This document shows positions 1 through 12,930 of a stretch of 14,365 bases of DNA, one piece after another. This stretch comes from an uncultured Bacteroidales bacterium (GTDB lineage Bacteria > Bacteroidota > Bacteroidia > Bacteroidales > F082): the NCBI GenBank assembly GCA_946410535.1, contig CAMKAR010000016.1, forward strand, positions 1 to 14,365, written 5' to 3'. The stretch's first letter is position 1. Each line of letters begins with the position of its first letter. The position numbers and the translations under genes were made by a program. The notes beneath the pieces were generated by a model. It was not told the origin of the DNA. It saw nothing but the letters and a program-made list of their open reading frames with translations, and made no database searches.

Positions 1-686
1 AAATAGATGATGGCTGTCACGATGAGGGGGAAGAAGGCATCGAAGGTGCGCGAGCGGATGAGGTCGGAGGCGCGTGTCATGTCGGCCACGGCGATGTAGC
101 CCACGATGCTGGTGCCTTTCAACAAACTGATGACCTCGCCTTGATAGACGGGCATAACGGCCTTGACTACCTGCGGTAGCACAATCTTGAAGAAGGTCTG
201 CCGACGTGTGTATCCCAAGGCAAGGCCAGCCTCGGTCTGCCCTCGGTCGATACCTTCAATGGCGGTGCGCAGCATCTCGCTGACGTAGGCCGCCATGTTC
301 ATGGCGAAGGTGATGATAGCCACTACGATGCCCGTGGCGTTCACCGGTGCCATCACCACATAGTACATCAGCATGAGCAGCACCAGCACGGGCGTGCCGC
401 GCATGATGTCGATATACACCTTGGCGGTGGTACTTACCCACTTTCGGCAGCTCATGCGCATCCAGCACACCAAACCGCCTAACAGCGTGCCAAAAATGGC
501 GGCGCAGAAGGTGATGAGCAGCGTCACCTTTAGACCGTCGAGAATCATCCTGTAGCGGTCCTCGGCGATCAGGTTGTTGTAAAAACTATCGGACACGCTC
601 CATTTCGCACCAGAGCAACCTGTCAGGATAAAACAGCCGCAGATTGCCAGGATGGCGGCAAGCATCCATTGTGTGTATTTTCTCAT
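1..686 (-). CDS. polar amino-acid ABC transporter permease (HisM/GlnP type), 3' end outside window
   Basis: Inner-membrane permease subunit of an amino-acid ABC importer. 228 codons are visible and the gene continues past the left edge. The typical EAA loop that contacts the ATPase is present at about residues 152-172 (EAGLALGYTRRQTFFK, then IVLP). A conserved cytoplasmic-loop motif RGTPVLVLL is at 96-104. The transmembrane stretches are hydrophobic at about 54-76, 99-112 and 117-135. The N-terminus is odd for a permease: MRKYTQWMLAAILAICGCF followed by ILTGC looks like a lipoprotein signal with a lipobox (Cys24), and the permease domain begins almost at once (about residue 45). In related proteins a solute-binding domain may sit between the two, so a lost binding domain is possible; that is inference. 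The ATG at 686 overlaps the stop of an upstream reading-frame remnant (ATGA). No binding protein or ATPase gene is visible in the window. Confidence 0.88.
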   Translation of the reverse strand, partial: MRKYTQWMLAAILAICGCFILTGCSGAKWSVSDSFYNNLIAEDRYRMILDGLKVTLLITFCAAIFGTLLGGLVCWMRMSCRKWVSTTAKVYIDIMRGTPVLVLLMLMYYVVMAPVNATGIVVAIITFAMNMAAYVSEMLRTAIEGIDRGQTEAGLALGYTRRQTFFKIVLPQVVKAVMPVYQGEVISLLKGTSIVGYIAVADMTRASDLIRSRTFDAFFPLIVTAIIY

Positions 687-796
687 TTATGTTTGTTTTG
701 CTCAAGTAATTCATTGAACACAAGTTCGTCGTCGAGCCAGGCCTTAACGCTGTCGCCGGCAACGGCCAGTTTGACATCATACAGATTTTTAATGGG
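683..796 (-). pseudogene. orphan 3' tail of an unidentified gene (possibly GH51-like glycosidase)
   Basis: A 37-codon open frame with no start codon lies between cstA and the permease and ends in TGA overlapping the permease ATG. It contains YDVKLAVAGDSVKAWLDDEL. This has the alternating beta-strand look of the jelly-roll/LamG-like module found at the end of some Bacteroidales GH51 alpha-L-arabinofuranosidases (pattern W-Y-D-V-K ... V-K-x-W/Y-L-D-x-x-L-V). The family call rests on memory of that pattern and is tentative. The peptide looks protein-like rather than random, and the in-frame stop upstream overlaps the end of cstA. It is therefore best read as the surviving 3' end of a gene whose body is gone. 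Confidence 0.4.
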
Positions 797-2255
797 TTAA
801 CTCTTTCGTTTTCGTTTTCCGATACCACACCGCGAACCACGCGATAGCCACCAACACGCAAAGGCCGCCCAGCGGATAGCCGATGCCGATGGGCAGGCCG
901 AGTATTTGCTTCGAGACGAAGAAGTAGGTGGAGCAGACGGCGGTCATGAAAAGTGCCGGAATCAGGGTGATCCAGAAGCATTTGCGTTCTTGCACCAAAT
1001 AAGCGGTCAAGGCCCAGAGGGTGAAGACGGCGAGGGTTTGGTTGAAGAAGCCCATGTACTGCCAGATGATGTTGAAGCCGTTGGGGTTGGCTATCTGCCA
1101 CACCAGCATGGCGATGGAGATGGCGAAAAGCGGCAGGCAGATGAAAAGACGCTTGCGGACGGGGGTTTGGTCGATTTTCAGCCAGTCGGCCACGATGAGG
1201 CGGCCGGAGCGGAAAGCGGTGTCGCCGCTGGTGATGGGTGCGGCCACCACGCCTAACATGGCCAATACGGCACCGAAGGCACCCAGCCAGTCGCGGCTCA
1301 CGAGATGCACCACCGCCGGCGCCGAAGTGGAGAAGCCGTTGGAGCCTTCAATGAGGTCGTAGCCGGGCGTAGGGTAGGCGTAGAAAAACCACATGCCTAT
1401 CGTGGCCCAAATCAAGGCCACCAAGCCTTCGGTCACCATGGCGCCGTAGAAGACACGACGACCCATGCGCTCCGTTTTCAGGCAGCGACCCATCAGCGGG
1501 CTTTGCGTGGCATGGAAGCCCGACACGGCACCGCAGGCCACCGTGATGAAGAGGGCAGGGAAGATGTGGTCGGTCCAATGCTCGGGGTCGGCTTTGGCAC
1601 CCATGTCGTAGAAATGGCTCCACAACTCGGGCAGGTGCGGCATCTTGGCGAAAAGCACCACCATCAACGCCACGGCCATGAAAACCAGCGCAACGGCAAA
1701 CACCGGATAAATCTTGCCGATAATCTTGTCGATGGGCAGCATCGTGGCTATGACATAGTAAGCGAAGATGATGATGACCCACATCATGGTGTCGCCACCA
1801 ATCAAATGCAGTATCGCTGCCGGAGAGTAAACAAACACGGTGCCTCCGACAAGCAAAGTCAACAAGGTCAGGGCCAGCGCGACGCTTTTCGTCCACTTGC
1901 CCAAGTACTTACCGATGATTTCCGGCAGGCTTGCGCCGCCGTTGCGCATCGAAGTCATGCCGCTCAGGTAGTCGTGTACGGCTCCGGCGAAGATGGTGCC
2001 GAGGACAATCCACAGGTAGGCCACGGGACCGAACTTGGCGCCCATGATGGCACCGAAGATGGGGCCTGTGCCGGCAATGTTGAGGAATTGAATCATGTAA
2101 ACCTTCCAGTTGGGAAGCACCATGAAATCGACGTTGTCGCGCTTGGCGATGGCCGGCGTCACGCGGTCGTCGGGGCCAAATACCCGCTCCACGAAACGCC
2201 CATAAAACAAGTAGCCCAGAATCAGGACGGCGAGGCTAATGATAAAGGTAATCAT
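789..2255 (-). CDS. cstA: carbon starvation protein CstA family transporter (short form)
   Basis: Polytopic inner-membrane protein of 488 aa. In E. coli, CstA and its paralogue BtsT are linked to peptide and pyruvate uptake; the substrate here is unknown. The family signature is clear: NIAGTGPIFGAIMGAKFGP at residues 59-77, then GTIFAGAVHDYLSGM at about 86-100 and ACGAVSGFHATQSP in the middle. The length matches the short Bacteroidetes form (about 480 aa), not the roughly 700-aa E. coli protein. The ATG at 2255 starts the conserved MITFIISLAVLILGYL segment. No strong Shine-Dalgarno sequence is visible, and the start lies five bases after the stop of the pyrB fragment, so translational coupling or use of the pyrB transcript is likely. 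GC content is high, like argS. Confidence 0.93.
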   Translation of the reverse strand: MITFIISLAVLILGYLFYGRFVERVFGPDDRVTPAIAKRDNVDFMVLPNWKVYMIQFLNIAGTGPIFGAIMGAKFGPVAYLWIVLGTIFAGAVHDYLSGMTSMRNGGASLPEIIGKYLGKWTKSVALALTLLTLLVGGTVFVYSPAAILHLIGGDTMMWVIIIFAYYVIATMLPIDKIIGKIYPVFAVALVFMAVALMVVLFAKMPHLPELWSHFYDMGAKADPEHWTDHIFPALFITVACGAVSGFHATQSPLMGRCLKTERMGRRVFYGAMVTEGLVALIWATIGMWFFYAYPTPGYDLIEGSNGFSTSAPAVVHLVSRDWLGAFGAVLAMLGVVAAPITSGDTAFRSGRLIVADWLKIDQTPVRKRLFICLPLFAISIAMLVWQIANPNGFNIIWQYMGFFNQTLAVFTLWALTAYLVQERKCFWITLIPALFMTAVCSTYFFVSKQILGLPIGIGYPLGGLCVLVAIAWFAVWYRKTKTKELTH

Positions 2256-2260
2256 AGTGG

Positions 2261-2380
2261 TCAGGAGTTCTGGCGCGGGTTTTTCTCAAAATACTCGGCG
2301 ATGTCGAGGACGTGGCATATCTCCTCAGGCGAGTAGTCGCTGATGGAGATGAGGCTGCGGTTTTTCAGTGAAATTGACAT
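2261..2380 (-). pseudogene. pyrB: truncated aspartate carbamoyltransferase (first 39 codons of pyrB)
   Basis: ATG at 2380 to TGA at 2261 gives a 39-aa peptide. It contains LKNRSLISISDYSPEEI and then HVLDIAEYFEKNP, which matches the extreme N-terminus of Bacteroidales aspartate carbamoyltransferase (NRSL-x-x-I ... E-I-x-x-x-L-x-x-A-x-x-F-E-x-N-P). Full PyrB is about 305-310 aa. The carbamoyl-phosphate-binding motif (STRTR) and the rest of the enzyme are absent. The fragment ends abruptly five bases before the cstA ATG. The pyrB regulatory leader and promoter upstream appear to be intact. PyrB must therefore be encoded elsewhere, or the organism is rearranged or misassembled here. The peptide could now act only as a translated leader for cstA. 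Confidence 0.75.
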
Positions 2381-2392
2381 AGGCGTATGTGT

Positions 2393-2527
2393 TTAATTGT
2401 TGCTTTTGAACAAAAAAAGACGGCCAACAGTTTGACCGCCAATATGATAACGTTGGAAATTCAAAGTGAAGGAACCGATTGATTCCGTGCAGATAATCTT
2501 TTCCGATGGTTTGTTTAGGTACTTCAT
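2393..2527 (-). CDS. 44-codon leader ORF overlapping the pyrB attenuator
   Basis: ATG at 2527, TAA at 2393, 44 codons. The peptide starts MKYLNKPSEK, later contains YHIGGQTVGRLFLFK and ends in SNN. It is read straight through the terminator-like hairpin at 2419-2440 and its T-run, and stops 12 bases before the pyrB fragment ATG. This layout matches the E. coli pyrBI leader, where a 44-codon ORF overlaps the attenuator and coupled translation prevents termination when UTP is low. Coding status is inferred from position and length. One caveat: the ATG is only about 8 bases from the predicted -7 box, so the transcript would be almost leaderless unless the upstream promoter is used. Confidence 0.5.
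   Translation of the reverse strand: MKYLNKPSEKIICTESIGSFTLNFQRYHIGGQTVGRLFLFKSNN
2412..2440 (-). terminator. intrinsic terminator/attenuator in the pyrB leader
   Basis: On the minus strand GGCGGTCAA-ACTG-TTGGCCGTC forms a nine-pair stem, allowing two G-U pairs, with a four-base loop (2440 to 2419). Seven T follow directly (2418 to 2412). It lies between the predicted promoter and the pyrB fragment ATG, so it acts as an attenuator rather than an end-of-gene terminator. No clear alternative antiterminator stem was found. Confidence 0.7.
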
Positions 2528-2531
2528 CGGA
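2502..2531 (-). promoter_or_regulatory. 7-bp stem at the predicted 5' end of the pyrB leader RNA
   Basis: On the minus strand TCCGATG and CATCGGA form a perfect seven-pair inverted repeat separated by 16 bases. It would be the very first element of the transcript and includes the ATG of the 44-codon leader ORF. It could stabilise the RNA or control access to that start codon; the role is inferred. Confidence 0.35.
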
Positions 2532-2534
2532 CTG

Positions 2535-2567
2535 CAAAGATAAAGGATTAATTTGATAAGGCGCAAG
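2535..2567 (-). promoter_or_regulatory. Bacteroidetes-type promoter for the pyrB leader and cstA
   Basis: The minus strand carries TATCTTTG (2542 to 2535), a perfect TAnnTTTG -7 box, with CTTG (2567 to 2564) about 21 bases upstream as a -33 element. This promoter would drive the leader ORF, attenuator, pyrB fragment and cstA. Confidence 0.65.
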
Positions 2568-2614
2568 GGGAGGGGAGAAAATTTTTTTCGTAGACCGGGC
2601 GCAAAAGTCTTGCG

Positions 2615-2638
2615 TGGCCAATTGTATCACATTGGCCA
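2615..2638. promoter_or_regulatory. perfect 8+8 dyad, possible operator
   Basis: TGGCCAAT, eight bases, then ATTGGCCA: a perfect inverted repeat located between the two minus-strand promoter-like sequences. It is shaped like a binding site for a dimeric regulator, but no regulator gene is visible nearby. A shorter hairpin (CGCAA...TTGCG, about 2600-2614) adjoins it. Confidence 0.35.
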
Positions 2639-2707
2639 GCACCCATGTATCCAACCAATAATAACTGAATCTGTTTGCTTGCATATCTAGTGGCTCTTTT
2701 TTCGAGG

Positions 2708-2740
2708 CAAAGATAATACTTTTTCATCGTTCTAACCCAA
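2708..2740 (-). promoter_or_regulatory. second promoter-like element upstream of the pyrB leader
   Basis: The minus strand has another exact TATCTTTG box (2715 to 2708) with TTG (2740 to 2738) 22 bases upstream. No supported gene starts directly after it; the next real start is the leader ORF at 2527. It may be an alternative, more distant pyrB promoter. The rest of the gap 2568-2845 holds only the dyad at 2615-2638 and a widely spaced inverted repeat (TGCCAAGA/TCTTGGCA, 2759-2805). I see no gene and no clear terminator for the putAbiC operon. Confidence 0.4.
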
Positions 2741-2845
2741 TGAATGGGGTGAAGAGTTTGCCAAGAAAGTGACGCTCGGGCTTGTCCCCCAACAATCTCT
2801 TGGCAGGGCAAAAACGACACTGCTGACACAGTTCAGTTGAAGCGC

Positions 2846-3703
2846 CTATTCTTTTATAATATACGCCCCTTCTTCAAAGAGTAAAAGATGCTTTGGATCA
2901 AAAACCGTATTCTCGCCAAAGTCCCTAAATAATGCGTATTTCTCAACTAGTTCTTTAGCTCTTTTTCTTCCGTCTGGTGATATGCAGTAGTAAAAAAACA
3001 TTGTCAATTCATAATAAGACATATGCGATGTTAGCAACCCAACATAATTATATTTTTCTGCTTTCGACAGAAAATCAGTCTGATCAATCAATTTTAGGAT
3101 TTGAGCTAAATGTCTATTATAGTGATCCAATTCTCCAAAATAGATATTACTAACATCTATATTTGTAATACTCGCACGAAATCGTGAAAATAAATGGCGA
3201 AATGCTTCTTCACCACATACCACATTTCCTGTTGTTTGGTATCTTACCTTCTCAAATATATTCATTTGCAAGTTTAGCATATTAAAAAATGTGTTTTCAA
3301 ACCGCTGCAACATTATCGTCTTATTCTGCTCCTCCATCTCTTTCCTTTGCGACTTCAGCTCTTCATTTGTTTGAGCTATTTCTTCTTTTTGCAACCGCAA
3401 GGCTTCTGTCTGCGCTTCCAAATCTTGTCTTTGTAGATTTATTTCGTCTCTCTGATTCTTTAAATCCTCACGTTGTTGCATGATAGTAATAATCAATCCA
3501 GCAAATGCTAATCCTGAAAAAAGTGCACCTAATGCGCCAAACATATCTCCAAATTGCCCTCTTTTTTCAAGATTACCGGGGAAAAGCCAACACATAACAC
3601 TAAAATAGCCCAGATACAATACCAACACTATGACAAATACCCAGGTATTCCATTTCTTGGTGTTTATTCCTCCTTTGCCTGCTTTTTCATTATCTTTTGA
3701 CAT
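2846..3703 (-). CDS. putAbiC-family phage abortive infection protein
   Basis: 285 aa with the layout of the putative phage abortive-infection family putAbiC (Pfam). Two membrane segments lie at about residues 21-41 and 52-75. A long polar coiled coil follows at about 77-132, rich in Q/E/K with Q-R-E-D-L and Q-R-Q-D-L repeats. The family domain starts with RFENTFFNMLNL (134-145) and continues with HYNRHLAQILKLI (194-206), EKYNYVGLL (216-224), SYYELTMFFYYCIS (229-242) and LVEKYALF (252-259). The protein would sit in the inner membrane with its C-terminal domain in the cytosol. ATG 3703 was chosen over the longer frame because it gives a clean start just before the first membrane segment and avoids overlap with the gene upstream. 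It is the last gene of a three-gene AT-rich operon, 32 bases after its neighbour. An anti-phage role follows from family and context; the mechanism is unknown. Confidence 0.72.
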   Translation of the reverse strand: MSKDNEKAGKGGINTKKWNTWVFVIVLVLYLGYFSVMCWLFPGNLEKRGQFGDMFGALGALFSGLAFAGLIITIMQQREDLKNQRDEINLQRQDLEAQTEALRLQKEEIAQTNEELKSQRKEMEEQNKTIMLQRFENTFFNMLNLQMNIFEKVRYQTTGNVVCGEEAFRHLFSRFRASITNIDVSNIYFGELDHYNRHLAQILKLIDQTDFLSKAEKYNYVGLLTSHMSYYELTMFFYYCISPDGRKRAKELVEKYALFRDFGENTVFDPKHLLLFEEGAYIIKE

Positions 3704-3735
3704 GGTAGTATAAAGTATAATTTTACAAATTGTAA

Positions 3736-4092
3736 TTAGTTGAGCAAAAGTTTTTGACTCATAAGAAACTCTTTCACTGAGTTTCGGTATTGTTCCATAA
3801 AAGCTCTCATAGCTGTCTTCTCGGCCTCTTTCTGTTGTTGTGTCGCACTGTAGAAACACTCAATATCATTTTCGTGCAAGTGAATAATACAATCTATGGC
3901 TTTATCAACCACGTTTTCCGATATACAATACGGAACGCCAAGAGCATTGATTAATATGCAGTTCAAATACTCTGCACATTCTGGAACATTCATTAGTGTC
4001 CTTGTTTTGCTGACAAAAATCCTGGTTTCGTCATTGCCATTTCTTTCAAGAACAGCTACGAAGATGTCAAATAAAGTGATTTGTGTTGCCAT
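3736..4092 (-). CDS. unknown 118-aa protein, middle gene of the putAbiC operon
   Basis: Not recognised. The start is ATG 4092 (MATQITLFDIFVAVLE); a slightly longer frame from a TTG at 4107 would run into the upstream gene. The sequence is soluble-looking, with a predicted helical N-terminus and a C-terminal charged helix (QQQKEAEKTAMRAFMEQYRN). Two Cys residues near the middle (C39, C45) and two later ones (C56, C68) do not form an obvious metal site. It begins one base after the stop of the 392-aa gene (TAA-T-ATG), so the two are almost certainly translationally coupled, and it is followed 32 bases later by the putAbiC gene. A small accessory or regulatory subunit of the same system is the most economical reading, but the sequence does not show a function. 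Confidence 0.7.
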   Translation of the reverse strand: MATQITLFDIFVAVLERNGNDETRIFVSKTRTLMNVPECAEYLNCILINALGVPYCISENVVDKAIDCIIHLHENDIECFYSATQQQKEAEKTAMRAFMEQYRNSVKEFLMSQKLLLN

Positions 4093-4093
4093 A

Positions 4094-5272
4094 TTACTTT
4101 TTTGCAAAAATAGTTATTTTTTTCAATAGAGAATGTACATAAAGGAATGTATCCGAAACCCAGGAAGTTCCAATAAGACAAGTTTTTCTTTTAGTTCTCA
4201 TATTTTTATCTAAATTGCAAATCTTTGGATTCGGTACAGCCTGATTAGAGATTTTCTTTTCAAATCGTTTCTCTATCAAATCGATAACCTGATTGGCCAA
4301 TTCCAAGAAAAGATTGTTGTATTGTGCCACTTCTGCTATTATATCATCAATATCATATGAATACCGTGTACGAAATGAAGAATACTCATTATCGCCTACA
4401 ATGTCCACACCACTTCCATATGGGAAAAGATCTTTATATCTCATACCACCTCTATGTTTAATCTTATTAGCATAATCCCTGACGTTTCTAAAATCTTCAT
4501 TGTTCTTTTTATTGATCGATTTCATTATATTAGATGGCGTATAGCTTTGTAACCGAACATTTATTTTATTGAAAACACATGCTTTATACACATTTTCCAA
4601 CCCTTTTAATGAATTAAGGCTTTGTATATCTAATTTTTCTCCAATAGGATTTCCGTTTTCATCCTCACGTTGATAGCCTACAAAAACTTCAAAGCCAAGC
4701 CACATCGCTTGAATCAATTTGTCAAAACACGAATTGTACATAACAATTGCGTTGTTTAACCATATCGCCCGTGTCCATAATTGTTCCCATCCTGTAACCC
4801 AAAGAGTCTCACTTCTAAATTGAATGATTTTTTTAGCGTTAATTAATGCAAATCGTGCAGTGTTAAAGCAAAAGTTTAAATCCATCAACAACCTCTCGGT
4901 TTCTTTGATAATAGCGCGACATGCTTCATCACTCGTTAACAGGTATATTTCATGCACTCTTTCCAATCCACTTATTCCTGTTAGGCGTTTGAGATTTTTC
5001 TCAAATATACGAGTATTCGCTATATAATCATATAAACTTAACTCCCCTTTATTATTAATGATAGACAGCGGTAGATCCTTGATGTTATTTATATTTTTAC
5101 CTTTTACTTGTCTTACAGAATAGGGGAATTCTTTCAAAAATGGCATCCATTTGTGTAAGTTTTTTTCGTTTTCTGAAAGTGCATCATCGTATTGTGACAG
5201 TCTGTAGAATTTACCGCAGACAATAAACCCTAATAATTCTTCTTTTGGTAATTTGTTATTTCTTGAGTTCAT
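4094..5272 (-). CDS. unknown 392-aa protein with HEPN-like RN...KHRG motif
   Basis: No family recognised with confidence. The protein is mostly helical. Residues 165-200 (WTRAIWLNNAIVMYNSCF onward) form an amphipathic helix, and FRNVRDYANKIKHRGG at 261-276 recalls the basic R-N...H active-site helix of HEPN ribonucleases, with a further long helix at about 308-336. The usual HEPN spacing is Rx4-6H. Here R262 to H273 and R265 to H273 are longer, so the match is only suggestive. The N-terminal 110 residues are unplaced. The last 45 residues (after about 345) are basic and look unlike the rest, possibly a late extension. Low GC. It is the first gene of the three-gene operon, with a good promoter 50 bases upstream. 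Context suggests an anti-phage effector or sensor; this is inference. Confidence 0.75.
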   Translation of the reverse strand: MNSRNNKLPKEELLGFIVCGKFYRLSQYDDALSENEKNLHKWMPFLKEFPYSVRQVKGKNINNIKDLPLSIINNKGELSLYDYIANTRIFEKNLKRLTGISGLERVHEIYLLTSDEACRAIIKETERLLMDLNFCFNTARFALINAKKIIQFRSETLWVTGWEQLWTRAIWLNNAIVMYNSCFDKLIQAMWLGFEVFVGYQREDENGNPIGEKLDIQSLNSLKGLENVYKACVFNKINVRLQSYTPSNIMKSINKKNNEDFRNVRDYANKIKHRGGMRYKDLFPYGSGVDIVGDNEYSSFRTRYSYDIDDIIAEVAQYNNLFLELANQVIDLIEKRFEKKISNQAVPNPKICNLDKNMRTKRKTCLIGTSWVSDTFLYVHSLLKKITIFAKK

Positions 5273-5321
5273 ACTTTATGCTTAAAATATGGTAACGGCC
5301 ACGTCAGTTTTGTTTCTCTTG

Positions 5322-5350
5322 CAAAGATAGAGAGTTTTTTACAAAACAAC
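5322..5350 (-). promoter_or_regulatory. promoter of the three-gene putAbiC operon
   Basis: Minus-strand TATCTTTG (5329 to 5322) is an exact -7 box, with GTTG (5350 to 5347) 17 bases upstream. Transcription would start near 5316, giving a leader of roughly 44 bases before the ATG at 5272. This makes the cassette independent of the methyltransferase operon, from which it is separated by a 194-base AT-rich gap with no clear hairpin terminator. Confidence 0.6.
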
Positions 5351-5466
5351 CATAACAATTAATTACAATATGCTACTTTAATATTCACCTCGCTACATTC
5401 TAACTTGCTGTTTTTTTTGTTATTTACATTTTTTTCGCATTGTCGCTACCAAAACACCTCTTCATT

Positions 5467-8406
5467 TCAAAGTTTTCCCTCAATCACCGCAATCTCTTCA
5501 GGACTAAGACCGTAAAGCTCATATACTTTTTTGTCTATTTGTTTCTCTATTGCTGAAGTTTCAACATTAGAGGCTTTCCGCTTAATGGAAAGAATTTGTT
5601 CCACAAATAATACAATCTCTTGATTTGTTTTAGTTTCAGGGAGTGGTATTTTTCTTAGTTGTTCAGGCTTTATGTTTACATCAATAAAATAATATGAAAA
5701 CCAATAATTTATAAGCTTTGAGTTCAATATACCAATAATATATTTGAGTGTATAATTGTCTTTGTATTGGTCTAATAATACGATATTTGACAACCCAGTT
5801 CCATTTATATAACCGTCAATGTCGTAAGCGCAAACTAATCGGGTTTTTAATTTTGGATTACGAATGCGCTGAACAAGTATTTTTTCTTTGTCAAAAATAT
5901 AAGAAGGTCTTGGCCTATGCAACCATTCCCCATATTTCAGATATTCACCACTCCAAGTAATCGAGTATTTTGAAATGTCTCTTCCGTATAATAGTTTTCT
6001 ATGGTATTCGGTTTCCTTTTCTGTTGAGGTCCATATTCTTGGTTGGTCCTTCCCTGCATATGCAATTAAACCTTGCCAAATTTCGACAATACTCCCGAGC
6101 ACGACCCCAGCTCTTTCTATTTTCTGAATAATAGGATTGGTCTTTGAACATAGAATACTATCATCATTAGTATTGAAATCAAGGATATGAAATGACTTCA
6201 AGTCATCCTCTACAAATTTATATTTCTTTGATTTATTTCCTTTGTTGACCTTCAGAATAGTTATCATAGTATCAACAGTTGCGCTTACAAAAATATCGTA
6301 TAAAGAGTCTGTTATAGACACTATTTCGCATTTATCAAATAGTATCTGCCTCATCTTTTTGAAATAGCCCAATGTTTGCCATGTATTAGGCGTTATATAT
6401 GCGATAACACCTTGTTGGCAAGACAATTTCGTTGCTTGCTCGAAGAAATATTTATAAATCTCATACTTGCCTTCCGTACATAAATAGCACTTTTTATATT
6501 GTTCTTTATTTTCGGTTATAGTTGCTCCATAAGGCGGATTCCCAATAACAATATCAAACCCGCCCTTGTCAAAGATGTCCTTAAACCAGGTGTGCCAGAG
6601 GAAGAAGTCTTGGTTGGCGGAGGGGTCGAGTTGGTCTAACTTGGCGAGGAAGGTCGGAGTGCCGCCAACGCTTTCGCGGATGAGGGTCTTCACCTCGGCG
6701 TTGATGGCGCTTCGCATGGTGGCTTTCTTTTGATGGTCGGTGACGGAGAAGTATTCGCGCAACAGGCGTTGCAGGTTCTTCTGGCTCAGGTCGCTGTCGA
6801 GGCCAATCACATACTGCGTGGAGGTGGACGGACGGCCCACGGTCTTGCCCGCGATGCGGCTGAGGTCGAAACCACCATAACTCTCAATCAGGCTGTTGCC
6901 TTGCATGAACTTGTAGTCGAAGTTGGGCAAAGGCTCCGCCGTCTCGCTGTCCACCACGATGCTCAACCAGAAACGGAGACGGGCGATGTCGATGGCACCG
7001 CGCTCAATGTCAACGCCATAGATGTTGTTCTCAATAATCTCTTTTTTCAACTGTAGGCGCGATAGCTCAGTCCCCAAGGCCTCGCGGCAACGCCACAATT
7101 CGTTGAGCAAACCCATCGGGAAGGCACCTGAGCCAATGGCGGGGTCACAAATCTTCACCTCGCGCAAGGCGGTTTCGAGGGTGTCGCGGTAAGGCTCCAA
7201 CTCAGGCTGCATCTCGTGGTGTTCCACAAAGGTGCGGATGTCGCTGTCATCTTGTAGAGACGTGCCATGGCGCGTCTCTACAGCTGAGACCAGATAGGCT
7301 ATCAGCGACTCCTTGCACATATAGCGCACAATCTCCTTGGGTGTATAGAAAGCGCCTTTGGCCTTGTTGTCCTCCAACAAGCTCTCGAAGATCTTGCCCA
7401 ACATCTCAGGGTCAACGCCAATCTCGGCATCGTCGGGGTCGTTCTCATCGACAGTGAAGTTGTAGGAGGCCAAGAAACTGAAAAGGTCGGAGAAAAGATA
7501 GCGGGGCAACACAATCCTCAGGTTGTCAACGTCATCACGTTCAAAAAGGCCTCCGTTGAGATAGGGAATGTCGGCCCATTGTTCCACCCACTGTTGCGGC
7601 CAGCTGTTCCTGCCGAACACTTGTTCGCGCTTGGCAGGTTCGGTGTTGAGGATGCCGAAGAAAAGCGGTTCGAGCACGCTTTCAAGATAGTCGTCCTGGC
7701 GTTTGCTTTTGTCGAAGGTGTTGAGCATGAAGTTGGTGTCGCCACAGAGCCAGCCTTTCTTTTGCAGGAAATGCAGGAAGACGATGCGCCCCATCAGCTT
7801 CTTCACATAATCGTGATACACGGCTCCCAACTTGCCTTGTCGCGTCAACTCGGCCACGATATGGTCGTAATGGACATGGTACTCGTCGAAGAACTCGTCG
7901 CTGAGCGCATCGACGGAGAAGGCTTCGCGCAAGTCGTTCAGGACGAACCTGCCTCGTTTGGCGCAAATGTGTTCGAGCCGATCCAAGGGCGTCTTATATT
8001 GGCCTTGCTCGTCGCCCAAAATGTACGAGAACCGTTTTGCGCTGGTGACACCTTCTTTCATGTCGCAGATGTACGACAAACGCCAATGGTTTTCGTCGGC
8101 AAAAACGGCAATGGCGGCATCAACATCGTATTTCAGGTAAGGGGCTATCATCTTGCGCAACCCCACGCGCTTGCGGCGCACGTCGCTGCCTTGGGCGACC
8201 TGGGTGTAGAAGAAGCCGAGTTCCCGACCGTCGGCATCGGTTTGGCGACCAATATAATAGCAGTTGTCGCCTTCGGCGGTGCCATCAAGCCATTCGGGGC
8301 GGGTGGAAATATCATTGCAACCGAAAACGTTGTGGACGATTTCGTTGCAGTAGGTCGGGTAGTCGAATTTCGATTGGAAGATTTGTCGTATGGTTGAGGT
8401 GTTCAT
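5467..8406 (-). CDS. Eco57I/PglX-like N6-adenine DNA methyltransferase with specificity domain
   Basis: 979 aa. It transfers a methyl group from S-adenosylmethionine to adenine in DNA. Visible parts in order: an N-terminal region (1-340) of the kind carried by long Eco57I-type enzymes; GAFYTPKEIVRYM at 351-363; SAM-binding motif I DPAIGSGAFPMG at 421-432; NIYGVDIERGAIDIARLRFW at 461-480; catalytic motif IV NPPYG at 623-627; and a C-terminal target-recognition region at about 770-920 with IIGILNSKLINYW (890-902) and LRKIPLP. Segment 55-110 resembles the position of the PD-(D/E)xK fold in type IIG enzymes, but no convincing catalytic triad is seen. It starts 11 bases after the stop of the helicase gene, so both form one operon. 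Composition changes sharply near base 6560 (about residue 615): the last third is AT-rich. A 30-base palindrome is embedded in frame at codons 375-385. Confidence 0.88.
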   Translation of the reverse strand: MNTSTIRQIFQSKFDYPTYCNEIVHNVFGCNDISTRPEWLDGTAEGDNCYYIGRQTDADGRELGFFYTQVAQGSDVRRKRVGLRKMIAPYLKYDVDAAIAVFADENHWRLSYICDMKEGVTSAKRFSYILGDEQGQYKTPLDRLEHICAKRGRFVLNDLREAFSVDALSDEFFDEYHVHYDHIVAELTRQGKLGAVYHDYVKKLMGRIVFLHFLQKKGWLCGDTNFMLNTFDKSKRQDDYLESVLEPLFFGILNTEPAKREQVFGRNSWPQQWVEQWADIPYLNGGLFERDDVDNLRIVLPRYLFSDLFSFLASYNFTVDENDPDDAEIGVDPEMLGKIFESLLEDNKAKGAFYTPKEIVRYMCKESLIAYLVSAVETRHGTSLQDDSDIRTFVEHHEMQPELEPYRDTLETALREVKICDPAIGSGAFPMGLLNELWRCREALGTELSRLQLKKEIIENNIYGVDIERGAIDIARLRFWLSIVVDSETAEPLPNFDYKFMQGNSLIESYGGFDLSRIAGKTVGRPSTSTQYVIGLDSDLSQKNLQRLLREYFSVTDHQKKATMRSAINAEVKTLIRESVGGTPTFLAKLDQLDPSANQDFFLWHTWFKDIFDKGGFDIVIGNPPYGATITENKEQYKKCYLCTEGKYEIYKYFFEQATKLSCQQGVIAYITPNTWQTLGYFKKMRQILFDKCEIVSITDSLYDIFVSATVDTMITILKVNKGNKSKKYKFVEDDLKSFHILDFNTNDDSILCSKTNPIIQKIERAGVVLGSIVEIWQGLIAYAGKDQPRIWTSTEKETEYHRKLLYGRDISKYSITWSGEYLKYGEWLHRPRPSYIFDKEKILVQRIRNPKLKTRLVCAYDIDGYINGTGLSNIVLLDQYKDNYTLKYIIGILNSKLINYWFSYYFIDVNIKPEQLRKIPLPETKTNQEIVLFVEQILSIKRKASNVETSAIEKQIDKKVYELYGLSPEEIAVIEGKL
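7253..7282. repeat. REP-like 30-base palindrome inside the methyltransferase gene
   Basis: TGTAGAGACG, T, GCCATGGC, G, CGTCTCTACA: a 30-base palindrome with one mismatch pair (7263/7272), which is a G-U pair in RNA. GTAGAGACG...CGTCTCTAC palindromes resemble short dispersed repeats I associate with Bacteroidetes and some cyanobacteria (from memory). It encodes about ten residues (near VETRHGTSLQ) between the FYTP motif and SAM motif I, without breaking the frame. Confidence 0.6.
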
Positions 8407-8417
8407 ATCGTTGACTG

Positions 8418-11400
8418 TTAAATGAATGTTTCTGATAGGATGATGTCAGCAGTTGCGGCGACTTTGGGTTGTTTGGGTGTTTCAGAGATGGCGTCCTTGC
8501 CGTAGCGTTCGTCAAGCGTTTCGAGTTGTTTTACGATCTCGATTATCGGCATGGGTGTCTTCTTGTGCTTGCGCGACATTCGGTTGATGTGGTCGGCGAG
8601 TTGGTTGTAGGTGCCGCGTTCCACCAACTGTTTCAAGCGGTCGAGCGTGGCGAGGGCGTCTTCGTCATTCATCAGCGACGGACGCACCTCGCGCAGGAAG
8701 GCGGCGGCTTTCTTGGCGTCGTTGTCGCGTCCGCCAATCTTGGGCTTTTCTCCTTGGTACTCGTGTTGCTGGTCGAGGGTGTATTGTGTCATGGCTCGCT
8801 GCACCTGCTCATAATGGCGAGGCTTGCTGTCGCCGAAAGGCACGGCCTTCTCGGTGGGTTCGGCACGGAAGATGTCGGCGGCTTCGAGGAAGGAGAGCTC
8901 ACGCACTTGGTCATCGATGAGATAGTAGGCGGTCTTTGTCTCTGACGCCAGATAGGCGATGGTTTGAGGTGGCCTCTCCGACGCTCTGCCACAGCGGCTC
9001 TTGGGTGGCAGCTGCTTGATGCGTCGGTAAAGCGTGGGATTGCTGTCGTGGAGGGCTCGCACCTCGCGGAGCAGTTCAAAGTTGCGGTCGGTGTCGTCGC
9101 GGGCATCGCTATTGAAGAGACGAAACTCCTTCACAATCTCGTCGTGTGAGTAAATCTTGGTGTCCTCGCCCAATGCCGAATGGAAACTCTGCAACTTGAT
9201 GAGGGAGTTCTTCTTCAGGCTGATGATGGAGTCGCCAGGGTCAGAAGGATAGAACATGTAGTTGTGGATGGCTTTGGCGGTGCTGCCAATACGGTTCACA
9301 CGGCCAATGCGCTGCATCAGGCGCGTGGCGTTCCATGGGCTGTCGTAGTTGACGATGACATTGGCACGATGCAGGTTGATGCCTTCGGCCAACACATCGC
9401 TGGTGATGATGATGTTATAGTCGTCGCGCTGCTCTTTCTTGTAGTTGGCATCAAAGTTGGCGCGGATGTCCTCTTTCTTGCGGTTGCGGTCGCGGGCGCA
9501 AACCGAAAGGATGTCGTTTCGGTGCAGTCGTTCCTGAAGTTGCTTGGTCAGATAGTTGACCGTGTCGACGCTTTCGCTGAAGACCACCAACTTGCCGCTT
9601 GGGTTGCGTCGGGCATCAAACAATTCGCCTTGCAACATCTCAACGAAAAGGTCAAGTTTCGGGTCGGCATTGACGGCATCCCATCGTTTGCAAAGACTTT
9701 CGAGCAGGTGGGCGTCATATTCCAGCATGGGCAAGAAATCGGGCAGGAAGTCAGTGGCTTGAAACACAATCTTGTCTTGGTCAAAGCCCTTGCCCAGTGC
9801 CAATTCTATGATTTCGTCCAGTTCCATCCCGTCGGCTTGCAACTTCTTGATGTTCAAGTCGGGAGCGATAATCACTTTGTCCTCGCGGAACATCTTGATC
9901 ATACCTTTTGTGGCATCAAGCAAGGTGTGTAGCGATTTCTTGAAGGCATCGAAACTGCTTTCCAGACGTTTCACCATGTGGGTTTGGTAGATGGAGGCGA
10001 GGGAATCGGCCATGTGTTTTGCCATCTTCCCGGAGTGGACCTTATAGTTGGTACAATATTCTATGGCGCGATAGCGGGCGTAGCGCAGGCCACTGCCGTC
10101 GAACATCTCTGGGTTGACCTCGTGAAGGTAGGCCGTAGGCGTGTCGATGAGCTTTTTGTAGGTATCGACAAAAAGCATCAGCACCTTGGGCGGCATCTGG
10201 TAGGTGCGGTCTTCGGGGTCGAGCAGTTGAGGGAAAGAAATCTGTCCGGCATAACGCGGCTCATGCTGGATGTTGCTTCGGGTGCGGCGTACCATCACCT
10301 TTTCCAACACCGTATGGCGCAGTTGCTGGTTGATGGCATCGATACGCGTGGCCAATGCCTCGGGCGTAATCGTGCGACGTTGCGACATCAAGGCATTATG
10401 TTCCTTAATCCACGGGGCAAAGGTGTCGGCAATGTTGCTCACCCCGTCGAGAGTGCAGCGTGCGGTGTCCTGAAACAGCAACAATTGGTTCTTGATGTCC
10501 TCAGGGGTATTGTTGAGCGGCGTGGCCGAAAGCAGCAACACTTTCTTTCCACCCGCGATGTGGCCTTTGTTGGCCCGAGGCGACTTGGTGATGCGTTGCA
10601 GCAGGTCGTAGTTGCCCGTGGAGTCGTGACGGAAATTGTGCGCCTCATCGACGATGATGAGGTCGTAATATGGCGGAGTGTCATAGTTGTTGCCTTCGAT
10701 GACCTTATCCAAACTGCCGTTGCTCACAAATCGGGTATAGACGTTCTTTATTTGGAAGTCGTTGAAGGTCTCTTCCCAGTTGCTACGCACGGCAGGCGGG
10801 AAGATGACGAGGATACGTGTGTTGTTGCCATTGGCGGCAATGAACCGTTGGGCAATCATGGCGGCAATCACGGTCTTGCCCAAGCCCACTACGTCGGCGA
10901 TGAAACAGCCACCGTGACGCAACATGATTTCATAGCCTTGCACCACGGCGTCACGCTGGTAGGTAAGGTCGTCGTAGCCAGGAGGCAACACAGGGATGAA
11001 GTCGTCTTCCACTTGGGCACCGAAGTGGTCGATGAGCATCCGCATATAAAGCTCGTATGGCGATGGCTGTTGCTCTTGTGGCGCGAGGTGAGTTCGGCCC
11101 ATCATGCGTTCCACATCGTTTATCGTGATGGGGATGGCCACCTTCCATAATTCCTGGAACTGTTGCTCGCTATAGGCCACGTCGTCGTAGTCCTTCATGG
11201 CCACGTTGAGTTCGTAGCGGGGCGGCTCGCTGATGCCGAGTCCCTGCGCGCTGATGTTGCTGCTACCCATGATGACCCAGCCGTCGCTATGTTCGGAGTG
11301 CTTCTTAGGAAGGCAGAGATAGAATTTGGCGTGGAGGTCTTTGGTAGGATGGATGCGCATTTGCAGCCGGCCCGAGGCGATGTCCTCGCAGAACTGGCGG

Positions 11401-11726
11401 ATGCTTTCATCGACGTCGCTGCTGTAGTCCGACTGGCGCACATCGCGTAGGAAGCTCTCGCAGTACTGTTCTATTGACGCGTCGCGGTCGCCGAAAAACA
11501 TCTTCCCGGCGGTTTGGGCCCGACGGAAGAGGTTGTCGATGTTGATGCCGACAAGGATTTTGATTTCCTGTGTCGAGGAGAGTTCCTGTCGAAGCTTGAA
11601 ATACCCCGAAGAACGAAAAAAGCCAACCAAGGCATGGAAGATGTCGAAGTTGGCCATGGCTGAGGCGATGCCGTGGAACTTGTCCATCAGCGTCGATTCG
11701 ATATTGTTGAAGAACTTGGTGCTCAT
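8418..11726 (-). CDS. PLD-domain/SNF2-family helicase of a restriction-modification-like system
   Basis: 1102 aa. The N-terminal 210 residues form a phospholipase-D-like nuclease domain: HAKFYLC (132-138, the HxK) and GSSN (154-157). An Asp in the usual HxK-x4-D position is not seen, so it may be a single degenerate HKD site. SNF2 helicase motifs follow: GLGKT (281-285, Walker A), VDEAH (359-363), LLSATPLNN (398-406), TSDVLAEGINL (775-785) and QRIGRVNRIG (805-814, motif VI). The C-terminal 270 residues are unassigned. ATG 11726 was chosen; a TTG 39 bases upstream would extend the frame without adding recognisable sequence. It is cotranscribed with the adenine methyltransferase immediately downstream. 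Helicase plus adenine methylase recalls DrmD/DrmMI of class 1 DISARM, but drmA, drmB and a separate drmC are absent. The likely job is ATP-dependent recognition and cutting of unmodified DNA. Confidence 0.85.
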   Translation of the reverse strand: MSTKFFNNIESTLMDKFHGIASAMANFDIFHALVGFFRSSGYFKLRQELSSTQEIKILVGINIDNLFRRAQTAGKMFFGDRDASIEQYCESFLRDVRQSDYSSDVDESIRQFCEDIASGRLQMRIHPTKDLHAKFYLCLPKKHSEHSDGWVIMGSSNISAQGLGISEPPRYELNVAMKDYDDVAYSEQQFQELWKVAIPITINDVERMMGRTHLAPQEQQPSPYELYMRMLIDHFGAQVEDDFIPVLPPGYDDLTYQRDAVVQGYEIMLRHGGCFIADVVGLGKTVIAAMIAQRFIAANGNNTRILVIFPPAVRSNWEETFNDFQIKNVYTRFVSNGSLDKVIEGNNYDTPPYYDLIIVDEAHNFRHDSTGNYDLLQRITKSPRANKGHIAGGKKVLLLSATPLNNTPEDIKNQLLLFQDTARCTLDGVSNIADTFAPWIKEHNALMSQRRTITPEALATRIDAINQQLRHTVLEKVMVRRTRSNIQHEPRYAGQISFPQLLDPEDRTYQMPPKVLMLFVDTYKKLIDTPTAYLHEVNPEMFDGSGLRYARYRAIEYCTNYKVHSGKMAKHMADSLASIYQTHMVKRLESSFDAFKKSLHTLLDATKGMIKMFREDKVIIAPDLNIKKLQADGMELDEIIELALGKGFDQDKIVFQATDFLPDFLPMLEYDAHLLESLCKRWDAVNADPKLDLFVEMLQGELFDARRNPSGKLVVFSESVDTVNYLTKQLQERLHRNDILSVCARDRNRKKEDIRANFDANYKKEQRDDYNIIITSDVLAEGINLHRANVIVNYDSPWNATRLMQRIGRVNRIGSTAKAIHNYMFYPSDPGDSIISLKKNSLIKLQSFHSALGEDTKIYSHDEIVKEFRLFNSDARDDTDRNFELLREVRALHDSNPTLYRRIKQLPPKSRCGRASERPPQTIAYLASETKTAYYLIDDQVRELSFLEAADIFRAEPTEKAVPFGDSKPRHYEQVQRAMTQYTLDQQHEYQGEKPKIGGRDNDAKKAAAFLREVRPSLMNDEDALATLDRLKQLVERGTYNQLADHINRMSRKHKKTPMPIIEIVKQLETLDERYGKDAISETPKQPKVAATADIILSETFI

Positions 11727-11792
11727 AGGCTTGACGTTTGTCGCGCTTCGCCTTTCAAGTACCAAAAATGTAATCCGTGAACTTTTGTCTAT

Positions 11793-12171: not shown

Positions 12172-12272
12172 GTGTCAGAAATGACTAATCCGGTATTTTC
12201 CGCGTGGGGTAAGCCTACACCGACACTGCCCAAAGTAAACAGAGTTGCCAATTGGCAACTCTTGTTTATTTA
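12172..12272 (+). ncRNA. candidate small RNA of about 100 nt
   Basis: Between a good promoter (12140-12169) and a strong terminator (12241-12272) lies a non-coding segment of about 70 bases that folds. AGTGTC and GACACT near its ends (from 12171 and up to about 12229) close a domain containing CGG-TATTTT-CCG and GTGGG-GTAAG-CCTAC hairpins. I could not match it to SRP RNA (no GGAA tetraloop with AGCAG), 6S, tmRNA, RNase P or a known riboswitch. It could be a Bacteroidales housekeeping or regulatory RNA that I do not recognise. Exact ends are estimates. Confidence 0.5.
12241..12262. terminator. bidirectional intrinsic terminator
   Basis: AGAGTTGCC-AATT-GGCAACTCT is a perfect nine-pair stem with a four-base loop. 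On the plus strand it is followed by TTGTTTATTT and would end the candidate small RNA. On the minus strand it lies three bases past the stop of the nuclease-like gene, is followed by GTTTACTTTG and would end that transcript. Confidence 0.8.
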
Positions 12273-12808
12273 AAGTAGTTCTTCATAAACAATCCATAGA
12301 ATGATTTGCTCTGCGTCAATTCTCTGGAAACGGAAATACTCTTGCGCCCTTTGAATATGAGCACTTCTATTGCGTTCTTGTTTTGCTCAAAGTAATGCTT
12401 TACCCCAAAAGCCAACAAGCTTGCTTTGTAATTGACCATCAAATGGATGAGAACCCGATTGCATTGTCCAATAGATTCTTCAAGCCGATTGGAAATCGAG
12501 TCCCTTCCGGTAATCGTTTTCAATTCATAGGGGCGATAGGTTCCTTTTCGTTCAAAAATGAAATCTGGAGTTCGTATACCGCTGGGATTGGGAAGGATAT
12601 AAACCTTGTACCCATGCGTGACGGCCTTACGTGCGGCGTTGAGCAGATTGCCGTAATCGCCTTCGCCCTCACTACCTGTAGAAAAGATGCCACTTTCTCC
12701 TTCAACAGGATGGAAATTACCTAAACGGGCAATCCGCTCTACCTGTCGGGAATAGTCAGCACCTGTCAGTGTGTGAAGTTTGGCCAATTCTGCTGCGATG
12801 TTGCTCAT
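12266..12808 (-). CDS. stand-alone CdiA C-terminal tRNase-like nuclease domain protein
   Basis: 180 aa from ATG 12808. A longer frame to 12892 would run through its own promoter, so the shorter start is preferred. The centre reads GYKVYILPNPSGIRTPDFIF (66-85), then YELKTITGRDSISNRLEESI (94-113), QCNRVLIHL (115-123). This pattern (hydrophobic strand, PD, ExK, then a Q-x-x-R-V helix/strand) fits the PD-(D/E)xK-like nuclease fold of CdiA C-terminal tRNase domains in contact-dependent inhibition toxins; here D82, E95 and K97 would be the catalytic set. The protein is not part of a large exported toxin: no signal peptide, no repeat region, no LPXTG-type motif, and no obvious immunity gene alongside. 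It may be a domesticated or intracellular nuclease. It is transcribed divergently from argS, and its promoter shares a 20-base identical sequence with the helicase operon promoter, which hints at joint control with the defence genes. Confidence 0.6.
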   Translation of the reverse strand: MSNIAAELAKLHTLTGADYSRQVERIARLGNFHPVEGESGIFSTGSEGEGDYGNLLNAARKAVTHGYKVYILPNPSGIRTPDFIFERKGTYRPYELKTITGRDSISNRLEESIGQCNRVLIHLMVNYKASLLAFGVKHYFEQNKNAIEVLIFKGRKSISVSRELTQSKSFYGLFMKNYFK

Positions 12809-12821
12809 CGTTAAGTTTTGT

Positions 12822-12841
12822 TGAGCGCAAATATAGGGAAA
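12822..12841 (-). promoter_or_regulatory. promoter box of the nuclease-like gene (copy 2 of 20-base repeat)
   Basis: Minus-strand TATATTTG (12835 to 12828), 19 bases before the ATG at 12808, inside an exact copy of the 20 bases at 12012-12031. No clear -33 element is visible upstream. The very short leader makes the start at 12808 preferable. Confidence 0.5.
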
Positions 12842-12930
12842 ATGTTCATTAGGGAAAGAGAGAGTGGGAAAAGAAAATCCCATTGCAAACATTTTTCCCG
12901 CTTTTTTCGCTTCGTTTGGGGCATATTTGC

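Follow-up and report, generated by a model that had tools for sequence, protein, structure and literature searches.

The three genes at positions 2846–5272 of the DNA stretch analysed here (14,365 bp, hereinafter designated the window) are probably exchangeable second-line cargo occupying a variable slot behind a two-gene restriction-like module, a reading to which we assign a probability of roughly two in three. It builds on the gene order, linkage and interchangeability observed at this slot, and on a 118-aa gene that stays constant while its partners change. The hosts of module and slot are Bacteroidales from rumen and related MAGs.

All three genes lie on the minus strand and encode, in reading order, a 392-aa protein (4094–5272) combining a predicted HEPN-like helical bundle with an N-terminal alpha/beta part, a 118-aa five-helix protein (3736–4092) and a 285-aa putAbiC protein (2846–3703). 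The stop codon of the first gene is separated by one T from the ATG of the second (TAA-T-ATG), and 32 bp lie between the 118-aa ORF and the putAbiC ATG. The G+C content of the block is 33.9%, compared with 48.2% in the window, so that the composition, ORFs and spacing described in an earlier note on this DNA are as claimed. That note also gave the genes a shared promoter. A promoter-like match to TTG-N17-TAnnTTTG, the Bacteroidales promoter consensus, does begin at 5349, 50–77 bp ahead of the 392-aa start, but it is weak, being one of six such matches across the whole minus strand. It falls in the 194-bp minus-strand gap (5273–5466) between the core module and the cargo, and gap and match together make separate transcription of the window cargo possible.

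The restriction-like module said to adjoin the block is borne out by a PLD-like and SNF2 helicase (8418–11765, minus strand), identified by domain matches, and a 979-aa Eco57I-type N6 methyltransferase with a TaqI-like specificity domain (5467–8406, minus strand), both upstream of the block; the defence context of the three genes is likewise supported. Comparison with relatives indicates that translation of the helicase likely begins not at the listed TTG but at an ATG 13 codons further on. The pair is common: in two families, the helicase was found at E <= 1e-150 in 43 of 190 and in 16 of 104 genomes. Further upstream, a 208-aa protein (12266–12892) gives a sub-threshold match to CdiA_C (22.2 bits, cut-off 26.6) and is perhaps a nuclease.

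To describe what lies behind the module, we collected 35 downstream stretches from these 43 and 16 genomes, largely those of the stronger matches, dropped one duplicate (L118) and seven stretches that a contig end cuts off in or at most 120 bp after the methyltransferase (L085, L095, L110, L114, L115, L117 and L119), and added loci L001, L003, L006 and L022–L024 and the window, giving 34 informative copies. The next gene downstream shares the strand of the module in 31 of the 34 and lies within 200 bp in 29, while a same-strand gene lies within 200 bp upstream of the helicase in only one of 42 loci (48 loci minus three without a helicase start and three without an upstream ORF, with gaps measured from the first aligned residue of the helicase). 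This asymmetry argues for the cargo reading. The slot content itself is interchangeable. We compared 94 pairs of copies that match at 80% identity or more over the first 1.8 kb of the methyltransferase. In the 2.5 kb behind that gene, 87 of these pairs have less than 100 bp in common and two have at least 1000 bp; the window, about 71–75% identical to the copies compared, is absent among the 60 pairs listed out of the 94.

The exchange seems to reach into the methyltransferase gene. Between the window and L022, a 5454-bp alignment at 74.7% identity ends at nucleotide 1878 of the methyltransferase. BLASTN finds no match between them beyond that point, which suggests that the AT-rich 3′ part of the gene travels with the cargo. 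The AT-rich stretch indeed starts within the methyltransferase, whose last 734 bp (5467–6200, the specificity end) have 33.4% G+C compared with 51.0% in the rest of the gene, a drop suggesting that specificity end and cargo were exchanged together.

The slots hold 85 proteins, of which ten families occur in two or more copies and the rest are single. The single proteins are overcounted, because run-on genes in L006 and CstA in the window are among them. Of 22 proteins scanned against Pfam, 12 gave a match at E <= 0.001 and 10 gave none at this threshold; ten were scanned against PADLOC. The contents include a PARIS-like pair (L098:3782–6017; AriA 4.4e-39, AriB 1.7e-20), a PifA/KAP-like NTPase (L100), an HEC-04-like ATPase (L097), and DUF4062, DUF2971 and HNH proteins. 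As a separate observation made by eye, a 143–145-aa gene recurs just past the cargo on the opposite strand (right-hand ends of L093, L096, L097, L101, L104 and L111; L032:3916–5606), accompanied in L093, L104, L111 and L032 by a 420–430-aa ATPase-like gene.

Profile searches of the 190 and 104 genomes returned four members of the 392-aa family each, corresponding to seven loci and one fragment. In three of the seven (L001, L003 and L006) the gene lies behind the helicase/methyltransferase pair. The fragment, at a contig edge of genome G599 (L024), closes the series helicase, methyltransferase (two ORFs), 118-aa relative, DUF2971 gene, 392-aa relative. These four loci, the last with its 118-aa relative, favour a restriction-linked cargo. 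A helicase remnant is kept in L004, in which an 1849-bp block with the methyltransferase 3′ end and the 108-aa and 392-aa genes matches L003 at 98% identity. Between the helicase 5′ remnant and the methyltransferase 3′ end, L004 carries two reverse-strand genes (627–6670), the 569-aa product of one of which presumably resembles DUF262/GmrSD. In L002, an N6-methylase/HATPase gene lies two genes ahead of the 392-aa relative, and no restriction gene was recognised by eye beside the relatives in L005 and L007, suggesting that the family does not need the module. No support emerged for a 392-aa gene carried by phages or plasmids: tblastn gave no match, and searches of viral contigs with the 392-aa and 118-aa alignments yielded no relative.

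The 118-aa protein matches no known family and has 38 homologues at E <= 1e-3, near-identical copies included. More distant relatives, 26–40% identical, occur in six of 190 genomes of one family, two of 104 of another and one of 393 in a sample of the order, and a wider search returned none in 395. The gene lies directly behind the helicase/methyltransferase pair in L022 and L024 and, in L023, after one 92-aa ORF (6317–6595) whose product we take to be HU-like. Elsewhere it follows a type ISP enzyme by 97 bp (L021; Mrr_cat_2, ResIII, ISP_coupler and Type_ISP_C), AbiEi/AbiEii by 466 bp (L010) and a DarT-like gene by 13 bp (L020), and its surroundings differ again in L011, L019 and L025.

What follows the 118-aa gene changes even between close copies. 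DNA identity of the gene is 96% between L021 and L022 and 97% between L023 and L024, and across L021–L024 the blocks of similarity break off no more than about 10 bp from the 118-aa stop codon. The genes that come next bear no relation to one another, encoding for example a 323-aa protein and a 285-aa DUF2971 protein, which adds to the case for interchangeability. The exception is a 334/330-aa partner common to L021 and L023 (91%), so that one cassette stands behind two different restriction machines, a type ISP enzyme and the helicase pair. The 118-aa gene is thus the constant member of a two-gene cassette whose partners change. A 314–318-aa family (L088:3156–4112, L089:4952–5908, L096:3507–4451 and L112:4545–5495) shows a similar arrangement, lying directly behind the methyltransferase with a different next gene each time; its L088 member has no Pfam match, and L088 and L089 keep 91% identity until the next gene starts, a gene that encodes 1235 aa in one and 413 aa in the other.

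We regard as tentative, and on balance rather unlikely, the alternative that the 118-aa and putAbiC genes form a two-gene system, to which the adjacent 392-aa gene does not belong. It would account for the same-strand next gene found 16–231 bp from the 118-aa gene at eight of nine other loci, and a second such pair may exist, since relatives of both proteins appear, among the matches listed, on contigs of equal size (15285 bp), which hints that the pair recurs. However, the next gene was never putAbiC by tblastn at the nine 118-aa loci read, and putAbiC keeps other company: its relatives (E <= 1e-15) occur in six of 190 genomes, and in the five of these six loci that were fetched widely and read the neighbours are different, for example a Mrr_cat protein in L032. 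Near another putAbiC gene, a 352-aa ATPase-like protein (L033:4367–5425) gives a weak 28-residue match to the 118-aa profile (E 4.1e-5, 11.5 bits), which disappears with a wider profile and which we take as chance; a small helical part common to this ATPase and the 118-aa family is conceivable.

An ordinary defence island, in which independent genes sit side by side, each acting alone and with no functional tie to the module, would explain why the cargo differs between most copies and why some 392-aa relatives occur without the module. We consider it unlikely; against it stand the same-strand, closely spaced genes downstream in 29 of 34 copies against one of 42 upstream, and the recurrence at the slot of the 392-aa and 118-aa families, both of which are rare. 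Several features do call for caution about the cargo reading, namely the module-free 392-aa relatives, the convergent gene that replaces the cargo in three of the 34 copies, the ten of 22 scanned slot proteins that lack a Pfam match and whose defence role is therefore only putative, the distance of the window from the copies compared, the absence of 118-aa relatives in the wider search of 395, the 194-bp gap in the window with its promoter-like match, and the tendency of defence islands to gather unrelated genes.

A bolder version of the cargo reading, which we think doubtful, would make the 118-aa protein a universal coupler that places exchangeable effectors (putAbiC, the 330–334-aa protein, the 323-aa protein and the DUF2971 protein) onto unrelated restriction machines (the PLD-helicase/methyltransferase pair and type ISP), to be released when restriction fails. 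Such a scheme would resemble the constant sensor and variable effector logic of CBASS.

A fixed three-gene abortive-infection system in which a HEPN RNase, a small regulator and a membrane putAbiC act together, the conserved unit proposed in the earlier note, is highly improbable and largely refuted by the gene-neighbourhood search, which found no 118-aa relative at any of the seven 392-aa loci or the five putAbiC loci, no putAbiC match at the seven 392-aa loci, the 118-aa family (E <= 1e-8, six genomes) and putAbiC (E <= 1e-15, six genomes) together in none of 190 genomes of one family, and differing partners for the 118-aa gene. Such a lack of co-occurrence is the first of two outcomes that the note itself had named as refuting its proposal. 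In favour of the fixed system are the TAA-T-ATG coupling, the 32-bp gap and common AT-richness, a single further meeting of the 118-aa and 392-aa families (L024, with a fragment at a contig edge and a gene between), and two pairs of equally sized contigs: the 15285-bp match above and one of 4332 bp carrying 392-aa and 118-aa homologues, both 99% identical to those of the window, which hints at the joint occurrence elsewhere of the first two genes in almost identical form, equal size suggesting but not proving the same contig. Apart from L024 and these contigs the families do not co-occur, and we rejected the conserved unit; a 392/118 toxin–antitoxin pair was likewise rejected, as the 392-aa family lacks a 118-aa relative at all seven loci.

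The three proteins themselves differ in how much can be said of them. Structure prediction, which had been proposed as a check on the HEPN fold, gives a 392-aa model with a HEPN-like helical bundle at about residues 119–337, making a HEPN-like fold probable. In the family, which has 47 homologues at E <= 1e-3 with near-identical copies included, the motif is Y[AS][NQ]xIKHRGGMRY, and KHRGG closes the third helix in 43 of 45 aligned sequences, the remaining two being shorter (232–233 aa). K272 is conserved in 43 of the 45 rows and H273 and R274 in 44 each, while R127, D131, E163, R168, N173 and D184 never vary across the 45 rows. The RN...KHRG motif originally noted is therefore present, but only its KHRGG part is conserved and the arginine is off the HEPN spacing: in all 43 KHRGG sequences the catalytic motif Rx4-6H is absent, with no R at H-5 to H-7. 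According to PMC3710099, HEPN families with the histidine but without the arginine exist, and other basic residues have been suggested as a replacement. An altered RNase site and an RNA-binding role are both possible for the 392-aa protein. The 118-aa protein is modelled with confidence (pLDDT 88) as a bundle of five helices, for which no convincing fold match was found, and neither of these two proteins contains a hydrophobic window.

The putAbiC protein matches PF16872 over residues 191–261 with 62.8 bits, above the Pfam gathering cut-off of 22, and has 2003 homologues at E <= 1e-10, near-identical copies included, the best 120 of which were listed. Residues 18–76 hold 14 hydrophobic windows, which by eye form two N-terminal stretches. 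The coiled coil attributed to this protein was likewise judged by eye.

Reading these features together, and modelling the second-line logic on PrrC beside PrrI, we propose that the module would act as first line, methylating self DNA and translocating on and cutting foreign DNA, and that the cargo would supply second-line effectors that target phage RNA or the cell itself once a phage or anti-restriction protein has overcome the module, as in a guard arrangement. The HEPN-like 392-aa protein would likely act on RNA, with K272, H273 and R274 replacing Rx4-6H in a putative RNase site; the small helical 118-aa protein may couple or regulate whichever effector is encoded behind it; and putAbiC would be the membrane effector in this copy, killing at the membrane. 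If this is true, a common restriction-like module of gut Bacteroidales is a landing place for exchangeable second-line defences, and reading its slot becomes a way to find new effector families. The most interesting point is the 118-aa cassette, which would provide a small, testable link from restriction to cell-level defence.

Several known systems resemble parts of this arrangement. The core module has the domain types of DISARM DrmD, BREX PglX and the PLD anti-phage protein NF042964, but its scores fall far below the curated cut-offs (152 against 610, 116 against 500 and 127 against 1100 bits, respectively), and we rejected it as DISARM or BREX; no other core gene of either system was found among the seven window proteins scanned (up to 12946). 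The type ISP enzyme of L021, a 1636-aa protein followed by a 118-aa relative with 96% DNA identity to that of L022, differs from the core module in being a single polypeptide with a Mrr-type nuclease. AbiP is a single-gene system, whereas the 285-aa protein, which passes PF16872 and matches AbiP weakly (1.6e-5, residues 190–255), is here a partner behind the 118-aa gene. PARIS (AriA/AriB) reacts to anti-restriction proteins and occupies the same slot in L098, but the window cargo has no AAA ATPase or DUF4435 protein.

The closest parallels are PrrC/PrrI and other HEPN genes of R-M operons (for example ApeA and AbiJ forms), which likewise place a HEPN-type protein with a restriction system as a proposed second line; as described in PMC3710099, PrrC is a HEPN nuclease kept inactive by its R-M system and freed by an anti-restriction peptide, and no fewer than 16 clades of HEPN proteins show a link to R-M systems. 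Compared with PrrC/PrrI, the module here is a PLD/SNF2 helicase with a single methyltransferase, the HEPN-like protein has neither Rx4-6H nor an ATPase, and the slot content varies from genome to genome. On the best reading, R-M-linked defence genes are a known kind, of which exchangeable cargo behind this module would be a new variant.
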